Origin: an uncultured Victivallaceae bacterium
GTDB taxonomy: Bacteria; Verrucomicrobiota; Lentisphaeria; Victivallales; Victivallaceae
DNA: 64,000 nt
Reading direction: 5' to 3'
NCBI GenBank assembly: GCA_944392655.1
Contig: CALXXL010000002.1
Coordinates: 62,001 to 126,000 of the forward strand
In this document: piece by piece, positions 43,139 to 45,679 of the stretch
Numbering within the stretch: the stretch's first letter is position 1
Layout: each line of letters starts with the position of its first letter
Program-made: the position numbers and the translations under genes
Notes under the pieces: generated by a model
Seen by the model: the letters and a program-made list of their open reading frames with translations, nothing else
What the model was told of the DNA's origin: nothing
Database searches by the model: none

Positions 43139-43167
43139 TTGGCAATTTTTTACTTTGGAATTATCTT
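43139..43167 (+). promoter_or_regulatory. ftsA-ftsZ promoter
   Basis: TTGGCA (43139-43144), 17 bases, TATCTT (43162-43167), 33 bases before the ftsA ATG and divergent from the PSP1 promoter. Confidence 0.5.
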
Positions 43168-43199
43168 TATTAGGTAACATTCCGGGGTTTGATTTTACC

Positions 43200-44474
43200 A
43201 TGTTTAAAAGACGTAATATTGTAAGCGCGATTGATATCGGCACATCCAAAATCTGTGTACTTGTGGGGTGCTGTGAGAATGACGAACCTTTGTCGGTCAT
43301 CGGCCGTGGCGAGGTATCGCTGAGCGGAGAAGTTGTCAAAGGTGAAATTGCCGACATGGAGAAGGTGTTTGAAAAATTCTCCGCAGCGCTGGATCTGGCC
43401 GACGAATCGTGCGGCGGCGAGCTGAACAATGCGGTATTGACGGCAATGTCCATCACCGGCTGTAACATCGGCAGTTTTCAAACCTCGGCGCCGACTTTTA
43501 TCAACTCGAACGAGGGGCGGGTGACGATGGCAGACATCGAATCGGCCTATTCAGCGATTGAACAGAAGCCGTTGCCGGGCAATCAGAAGCTGCTCAATAC
43601 GGTTGACTCATATTATCTGCTGGACAGTGTAAGACGGGTACGCAATCCTCTGGATCAGGCGGCGCAGAAGTTTGAGCTGTTCTGCCATGTCATTTACGGC
43701 GACGCCACCAGAATCGACAATTTCACCTCGCTGTACCGCAATGTCGGTTTTGACGACCAGCCGGTTCTGCTGTTCAGCGGCATGGCCGATTTGTACGGCA
43801 TAATCAGTCCGGAAGAGCGTGAACACGGCGTGCTTGCGGTGGACATGGGGCGCGGCACGACGGAATATATAGCGATATTCAACGATGGAGTATTTGCCTC
43901 CGGGGTTGTTCCGGTGGGTTTTGACCATGTGGCCAACGACCTGGCGATCGGGCTGGGGCTGCCGATTGAGACGACGCGGGATCTTCTGGTTTCCAACACC
44001 ATTCCGCAGGCGGTAACCAGCGGCAGCGGCATTATTCAGATCAAGCAGGGTTCGCAGAGCCGCAGGATTCCTCTGGCGAGTTTTGAAAAGATCATTGATT
44101 TGCGCCTGCGTGAATTGTTCACTATTATCAAGAACAGCTTTGAAGACCGCAATGTTCTGCGCAATCTGGCCAGAGGCGGTGTAATCACAGGAGGCGGAGC
44201 GCTGTTTCCGCGTACGGCGGAGATATTCCAGCAGACGTTTGAATTTCCGGTCCGCACCGGCTATCCCTACGATGTCGAGCACAATCTCGGGGAGCTGGCC
44301 AATCCGCGTTACAGTACGGTGTGGGGAACGCTCAAATTTGCGGAAGAGCAGCTTAAACTGATGCTGCAGAACCGCAGGCAGGGTATGTGGGCCACGTTGT
44401 CGGGAGCGGTCGGCAATGTTGGTGAATCGGCATGGCGGACACTGGCGGGATTAAAGAATTCGATTAAGATATGA
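43200..44474 (+). CDS. ftsA: cell division protein FtsA
   Basis: 424 residues. Actin-fold motifs of FtsA: 'SAIDIGTSKICVLVG' (phosphate 1), 'LAVDMGRGTTEYIAIF' (phosphate 2), VITGGGALFPRT (adenosine site). The last 16 residues (from ESAWRTLAG on) could form the amphipathic helix that binds the membrane. FtsA anchors FtsZ filaments to the inner membrane. Start taken at MFKRRN (43200), in line with the family; a longer open frame starts at 43155. It overlaps ftsZ by four bases (ATGA). Confidence 0.93.
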   Translation: MFKRRNIVSAIDIGTSKICVLVGCCENDEPLSVIGRGEVSLSGEVVKGEIADMEKVFEKFSAALDLADESCGGELNNAVLTAMSITGCNIGSFQTSAPTFINSNEGRVTMADIESAYSAIEQKPLPGNQKLLNTVDSYYLLDSVRRVRNPLDQAAQKFELFCHVIYGDATRIDNFTSLYRNVGFDDQPVLLFSGMADLYGIISPEEREHGVLAVDMGRGTTEYIAIFNDGVFASGVVPVGFDHVANDLAIGLGLPIETTRDLLVSNTIPQAVTSGSGIIQIKQGSQSRRIPLASFEKIIDLRLRELFTIIKNSFEDRNVLRNLARGGVITGGGALFPRTAEIFQQTFEFPVRTGYPYDVEHNLGELANPRYSTVWGTLKFAEEQLKLMLQNRRQGMWATLSGAVGNVGESAWRTLAGLKNSIKI

Positions 44475-45679
44475 CAGAAGCAACAGCAAACAATTTGAAT
44501 ATGAAGATTGCGGTTCTCGGTCTGGGCTGCGGCGGAGTGCGTACGCTTAACGCGCTGGCGGCGTTGCCTGCGGCGGACAAACTTTTTCTGTACGCGCTGG
44601 ATACAGACGGGCAGACGCTTGGTCAGTCGAAGTTGCCGGAAACGCACCGTCTGATGCTGGACGAACAGTGGCGTCAAGGCCAGGGCTGCGGCGGTGATCC
44701 GCTAAAAGGTCAGCGTGCGATTGCCCGGGTTCGCGGCTCATTGGAGCAGCAGTTGACGGGTTTTGACTATGTTATTGTGGTTGGAGGGCTTGGCGGCGGC
44801 TTTGCTTCCGGCGCGGTGGTAGCATTGTCGGGGCTTTTATCGACGATGAAGATTCCGGCGATACATCTTCTGACCATACCGTTTTCGTGGGAAGGCCAGG
44901 CCAAGCGGAAGATTGCCGATGGGGCGATTGCCGAAATACTGAATCAGACTGACTGTCTGATGGTGCTGCCGAATGACCTGTTGTTTTCGGTACTGTCGCC
45001 TGAGTCTCCGGCGCGCGAAGCGTTTCTGCTGGCCGATGGCGAAATTGCGCGGGCGATCATTGCGGTGGCGGAAATTCTGACCAACCGCAACATTATTCCT
45101 GCCGACTACTCCGACCTGGCGGCGATACTCAAGGAACGCAAGAGTTTCTGTTCCATCGGCGTAGGCATTGCGGCGCTCAATGAGGTGCAGAATCCCGGTG
45201 AGCTGGCGGTTGACCGGATGCTGTCGTCGCCGTTGCTGGGCGGAGTAGGCAAACTGCGGGAAGCGGATGTTATTTTAATTTCGCTTCTTGGGGGGCCGGA
45301 GCTCTCGATTGCCCAACTTCAGCAGTCGGCTGCCTCGGTGGAAAAGTGCTGTGGCGAGTATCCGCGGATAATCCTCTCGGCCAACACGGCCGAAGAGTAC
45401 GCCAACTGCATTCTTGCCTCGGCAATTGCGATAAAATATACGGAAAAGGCGAAGATAAAGGTACGTAAAAAGCAGTCGAGCTTAAAGGAACAGCAGGTGG
45501 TATCGCCGGTTCCGCCGGAATCTGAATCCTCTCCGGAGCAGCTGGCATTGCCGTTGCCGCAGCCCCCGGTGGACAAAGGTATATTCTTCAACTCGGTTCA
45601 GGTGGTCTATAATGGAGAAGATCTCGATATACCGACCTTCCAGCGGCGGGAAATTCCGATAGACCGCGGAGAGAACTGA
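44471..45679 (+). CDS. ftsZ: divergent FtsZ
   Basis: 402 residues. FtsZ landmarks: 'IAVLGLGCGGVRTLN' at the start, LDTDGQTL, IPFSWEGQAKR, VLPNDLLFSVL, and a T7-like ADYSDL (211-216) keeping both Asp that act on GTP of the next subunit. The tubulin signature loop, normally GGGTGTG, reads GGGFASG (108-114). After an 80-residue Ser/Pro-rich linker the C-terminal tail DIPTFQRR (386-393) matches the FtsA-binding peptide of ordinary FtsZ. Position directly after ftsA agrees. Polymerisation and GTP use may differ from E. coli FtsZ. Confidence 0.88.
   Translation: MTEATANNLNMKIAVLGLGCGGVRTLNALAALPAADKLFLYALDTDGQTLGQSKLPETHRLMLDEQWRQGQGCGGDPLKGQRAIARVRGSLEQQLTGFDYVIVVGGLGGGFASGAVVALSGLLSTMKIPAIHLLTIPFSWEGQAKRKIADGAIAEILNQTDCLMVLPNDLLFSVLSPESPAREAFLLADGEIARAIIAVAEILTNRNIIPADYSDLAAILKERKSFCSIGVGIAALNEVQNPGELAVDRMLSSPLLGGVGKLREADVILISLLGGPELSIAQLQQSAASVEKCCGEYPRIILSANTAEEYANCILASAIAIKYTEKAKIKVRKKQSSLKEQQVVSPVPPESESSPEQLALPLPQPPVDKGIFFNSVQVVYNGEDLDIPTFQRREIPIDRGEN

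Follow-up and report, generated by a model that had tools for sequence, protein, structure and literature searches.

The dependence of FtsZ on GTPase activity and treadmilling has so far been probed mostly by point mutants in model species. In Staphylococcus aureus FtsZ, T109 contacts the gamma-phosphate mimic, N25 hydrogen-bonds GDP, the substitution N208L abolishes assembly in vitro, and R143K lowers GTPase activity about sixfold and stabilises the polymers while assembly still occurs (PMC8936486). In Bacillus subtilis, the hydrolysis-impaired FtsZ(D213A), present beside native FtsZ, slowed constriction and did not stop it (PMC8079713). The canonical sequence is described by the tubulin signature [SAG]GGTG[SAT]G (as quoted in PMC1845146) and by the T7 motif NxDxx[DE] (as given in PMC12583498). 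Reviews of the PVC bacteria go no further than stating that FtsZ is encoded in these phyla or that its genes have undergone modification (PMC5147048, PMC12283558).

The window, a 64,000-nucleotide stretch from an uncultured Victivallaceae bacterium, carries an intact ftsZ gene of 402 codons (44471..45679, forward strand), the sole tubulin/FtsZ homologue detected in the genome. It is joined to the upstream ftsA (43155..44474, forward strand) by an ATGA overlap, the ftsA stop codon (TGA, 44472-44474) sharing bases with the ftsZ start (ATG, 44471-44473). The preliminary description had called this a fusion to a normal ftsA, and the FtsA protein indeed scores above the NCBIfam cut-off for TIGR01174 (207 versus 175.85). 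Translation of ftsA probably begins downstream of the listed TTG at 43155, the ATG at 43200 (MFKRRNIVSAIDIGTSK) being the better fit. At its other end, the FtsA C-terminus (AWRTLAGLKNSIKI) looks like a putative amphipathic membrane-targeting helix. The FtsZ protein ends in a conserved tail (QLALPL...DKGIF...GEDLDIPTFQRREIPIDRG; 45539..45676, forward strand) that holds the FtsA-binding peptide and is the best-preserved part in reduced relatives; the DIPTFQRR reported earlier was found here, near the C-terminus. Adjacency to ftsA together with this peptide (LDIPTFQRR) is as expected of an ftsZ ortholog.

Profile scores place the protein within the FtsZ fold but below the curated level of the ftsZ equivalog. 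The match to the Tubulin/FtsZ GTPase domain is clear (PF00091, 76.7 bits; cut-off 33), that to the C-terminal domain lies barely above its cut-off (FtsZ_C, PF12327, 27.2 bits; cut-off 27), and that to the ftsZ equivalog TIGR00065 falls below it (170.9 bits; cut-off 295.2). Five relatives from the same order score equally low (151-208 bits), and two FtsZs from the phylum outside the class reach 301 and 315 bits. The low score is therefore a mark of the lineage and not of the window gene alone.

We compared the nucleotide-binding and catalytic loops with those of B. subtilis FtsZ (residue numbers as in 2vam) and of relatives; all coordinates are on the forward strand. The T4 signature reads GGGFASG (residues 108-114, 44792..44812; wider context GGLGGGFASG), with B. 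subtilis T109 replaced by F111 (codon ttt, 44801-44803), G110 by A112 and T111 by S113, and it does not fit the canonical tubulin signature. This confirms the Phe-for-Thr exchange that had first drawn attention to the gene. The T1 loop (IAVLGLGCGGVRT, residues 13-25, 44507..44545) aligns without gaps and has C20 for G21, V23 for N24 and R24 for N25, and the T3 loop (GQGCGGDP, residues 70-77, 44678..44701) has C73 for A71 and G75 for A73; Cys or Thr and Gly are almost fixed at these two T3 positions across the order. In the T5 region (WEGQAKRK, residues 140-147, 44888..44911), the ribose-contacting E141 (E139 in B. subtilis) is kept and R143 is replaced by K145, so that the R143K state is natural here. 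The guanine-contacting N168 (N166 in B. subtilis) is kept in the T6 P-N-D (residues 167-169, 44969..44977).

The T7 loop (IIPADYSDL, residues 208-216, 45092..45118) had been described as kept (ADYSDL, 211-216). This holds for its aspartates, D212 and D215 (D210 and D213 in B. subtilis), but not for its asparagine, as N208 has become P210. The alignment is free of gaps at this point (GLINLDFAD in B. subtilis, NIIPADYSD in the window), and the sequence PADYSD departs from NxDxx[DE] by the loss of Asn alone. Residues retained relative to B. subtilis are D46, Q48, E139, N166, F183, D187, D210 and D213. The earlier picture of a single changed loop in an otherwise normal protein is thus not supported: T1, T3, T4, T5 and T7 are all altered, and they are altered class-wide.

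The sample comprised FtsZs from 67 genomes of the order (that of the window included), together with 15 full-length sequences found elsewhere in the class and 26 found in the phylum outside it. A single scan of GTDB contigs yielded just one further FtsZ, from Spartobacteria, at 24% identity. Within the order, 51 of 67 sequences have Thr at T109 (B. subtilis numbering), and the other 16 carry Leu, Met, Val, Phe, Cys or Ile there. Arg or Lys stands at N25 in 55 of 67 and Ala at G110 in 49 of 67, and Asn persists at N208 in just 7 of 67. The ribose and base contacts are far more stable (Glu at E139 in 67/67, Asn at N166 in 62/67), and the full-length core is present in all sampled complete ftsZ genes of the order. 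Phe also occupies the T4 site in one other species (G172, L158), as GRGFGSG. Loop erosion is class-wide, to varying degrees, and is not peculiar to one species. This erosion, rather than the single T-to-F change, is the interesting result.

If nucleotide binding had been lost, drift would be expected at the columns that contact the nucleotide. Across the 67 order FtsZs, the 22 contact columns, a list taken from general knowledge of FtsZ structures, had a mean entropy of 0.86 bits versus 1.90 for the core, and none of 20,000 random draws was as low; glycines among these columns may persist for folding, and related sequences are not independent. Side chains that contact base and ribose averaged 0.79 (P = 0.009), the phosphate contacts in T1 and T4 were intermediate (1.53, P = 0.17), and the T7 trio N208/D210/D213 was conserved no better than average (2.06, P = 0.60). 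Conserved contact columns beside an average T7 trio point to nucleotide binding having been retained in the order, with hydrolysis relaxed, as far as sequence conservation can indicate.

The predicted structure is compatible with an FtsZ fold. An AlphaFold2 model, computed from a 20-row alignment that included 19 distant FtsZs, the majority of them encoded on viral contigs, had a pLDDT of 74; its core is well predicted, whereas the linker and tail are disordered. Its best Foldseek matches in the PDB were FtsZs (E ~1e-27, target-normalised TM mostly 0.84-0.90); these include GDP-bound and GTP-analogue-bound structures, although the model speaks to fold only and not to GTP binding. Many viral contigs in IMG/VR (L159-L222) were seen to encode an FtsZ of ~312 residues with a canonical GMGGGTGTG. 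These viral proteins are without the C-terminal tail, and hence without the FtsA-binding peptide.

We consider it probable that the window FtsZ is a working division scaffold that would bind guanine nucleotide and hydrolyse it slowly or differently. As the sole FtsZ of the genome, it may bind guanine nucleotide and assemble head to tail into a polymer that serves, via FtsA, as the scaffold of septal wall synthesis. Its lineage, which spans the class, appears to be under relaxed selection in the phosphate-side and catalytic loops. GTP or GDP would be held through T5, T6, H7 and the T4 glycines, and Phe111, Lys145 and Pro210 would make hydrolysis slow or re-wired. Slow hydrolysis could in turn give more stable filaments, with a turnover less dependent on GTPase activity. 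Altered GTP handling is thus what we would naturally infer from these residues. The genome encodes three FtsW/RodA and three PBP-dimer proteins, so that septal wall synthesis looks complete. The S. aureus R143K variant (PMC8936486) and the constriction seen in B. subtilis with FtsZ(D213A) (PMC8079713) also speak for this reading. Several points count against this reading. Since N208L abolishes assembly and both T109 and N25 contact nucleotide in S. aureus (PMC8936486), the change of all three might mean that binding or polymerisation has been lost. Many of the conserved contact positions are glycines, which could be kept for the fold, and the TIGR00065 score is far under the equivalog cut-off.

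Elsewhere in the class, reduction of the ftsA-adjacent gene has gone much further. In family f10 this gene is an open frame of 257-342 residues in six genomes (G110, G175, G208, G291, G178 and G239; for example L099:2086-2997, forward strand, which adjoins ftsA, as do those in L100, L102, L103, L105 and L106). The encoded proteins have lost T7 and the tubulin C-domain, and consist of a partial N-domain followed by the tail (GIF..P...GxNLDIPTFQR). Loss of the C-domain in this sister family also counts against the scaffold reading, since polymerisation may not be the selected trait. Another genome, G202, has a 247-residue frame that matches over the tail alone, with no ftsA within the stretch examined. 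Genus g52 encodes a FtsZ-like protein of 357 residues (L111:1750-2820, forward strand; also L112) that lacks the T4 motif, does not lie beside ftsA and has no Pfam match above cut-off.

Of the 95 class genomes, 29 encode a second, conserved tubulin-like protein (~376 residues), and every f10 and g52 genome is among them; two further genomes of the phylum have it too. Its T4 reads GGGTGNG, and members from different families are 44-58% identical. Examples are found at L113:1455-2582 (reverse strand), L115:790-1917 (reverse strand) and L239:1501-2601 (forward strand), with 26 more class genomes carrying a member. These proteins fall below the Pfam and NCBIfam cut-offs and have no constant neighbour visible; none occurs in genomes of the window's family. 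Among class genomes without this second family, no reduced FtsZ was seen. The co-occurrence is an association that reflects one or two independent events only. These observations allow a broader though less probable reading, in which the FtsZ of the class is being freed from GTPase-driven treadmilling: the window's family would retain a full-length, eroded, slow or static scaffold, f10 would have reduced it to a small FtsA-binding adaptor, and the second tubulin-like protein would possibly do the polymer work.

One alternative, which we regard as rather unlikely for the window gene, is that FtsZ has become a pseudo-GTPase adaptor. Nucleotide would no longer be needed, the protein would be a static scaffold or tether whose selected part is the FtsA-binding tail, and FtsA with the wall synthases would supply the dynamics of division. 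The f10 proteins, which keep the tail without C-domain or T7, and genus g52, without any T4, both fit such an adaptor, as does the FtsZ of Nitrosopumilus, which has AGKAGSA, lacks T7 and forms no filaments in yeast (PMC3684127). However, nearly all species of the order retain the ribose and base contacts, all of their sampled complete genes keep a full-length core, and the window genome encodes no other tubulin that could step in.

It is less likely still that the substitutions reflect ordinary tolerance, in which the backbone would bind phosphate without help from the T4 Thr side chain and compensating residues would maintain a normal rate. The site does tolerate change: on a tree built without these loops, T109 changes state at least 8 times, and Leu, Met, Val, Ile, Cys or Phe can stand there instead. 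The corresponding minimum is 9 changes for N208 and 11 for D210; all three counts are approximate because the tree is a quick one, and they do not distinguish gain from loss. The window FtsZ also retains D210 and D213. Yet the 26 FtsZs from the phylum outside the class keep Thr at T109 in 26/26, Asn at N25 in 25/26 and Asn at N208 in 22/26, and thus the relaxation is specific to the class; N208 and R143 furthermore matter in vitro (PMC8936486).

That the sequence is wrong at this site, or that the gene is decaying while a canonical ftsZ lies elsewhere, is formally possible in an assembly that is 95.3% complete (2.34 Mb, 37 contigs) and could have a gene missing, but has next to no credibility given the intact frame, Leu at the same site in a congener and a single copy throughout the family. 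An error at 44792-44812 had been named beforehand as one thing to exclude, and it was excluded: turning ACN into TTT would take two or more base changes, and in the congener (G001), whose FtsZ is 58% identical, the motif reads GGGLATG with Leu at the F111 site. The supposition that this is the only FtsZ of the genome also stood. A PF00091 search gave one match even at E ≤ 10, and an FtsZ profile made at the level of the order likewise gave one. Tubulin_2 (PF13809) had no match in the genome at E ≤ 1 and was absent from the Pfam matches of the window FtsZ, and the second tubulin-like family of the relatives had no match in this genome. Each of the 39 family genomes that are at least 90% complete has exactly one PF00091 match (39/39), which makes an overlooked second ftsZ in the window genome very unlikely. 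One genome of the same order (G130, family f4), 92% complete, had neither a PF00091 nor an order-profile match, probably owing to an assembly gap.

The class is a natural series, from a full-length sole tubulin with relaxed T4 and T7, to a protein with no T4 motif, to a partial N-domain with tail, and therefore a natural experiment on how far FtsZ depends on its GTPase machinery. If the eroded FtsZs still divide cells, evolution can do without textbook treadmilling in the long run; if they fail to polymerise, some other scaffold has to do so. The literature searched, of which coverage was partial and which did not extend to Pilhofer et al. 2008, yielded no account of class-wide signature loss.

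Among known systems, the divergent tubulin-superfamily protein FtsZl1 (Tubulin_2, PF13809; PMC2875224) resembles the window FtsZ in its divergence, but it coexists with a normal FtsZ in a different gene neighbourhood, and the window genome is without a PF13809 match. The FtsZ of Nitrosopumilus maritimus is likewise an FtsZ-family protein with an altered T4 signature and T7; there, however, T7 is wholly missing and cell division is attributed to Cdv proteins, whereas the window FtsZ is the sole candidate and keeps T7 in part (PMC3684127).

Closer at hand, the FtsZs of the phylum outside the class (L036-L061) share with the window FtsZ an extended tail (theirs G-x-F..x...GxDLDVPT). D213 is critical in model FtsZs. 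In these otherwise canonical phylum proteins it is frequently Thr; many are without D213, yet they keep T109, N25 and mostly N208, and the two tested pass TIGR00065. With canonical FtsZ from B. subtilis, S. aureus and Escherichia coli (TIGR00065, PF00091 with PF12327), the window protein shares fold, domain order, ftsA linkage, the C-terminal FtsA-binding peptide, the ribose and base contacts and the T7 aspartates. It differs in T4 (GGGFASG), T1 (N25R), T5 (R143K) and T7 (N208P), and in a score of 170.9 bits versus 295.2.
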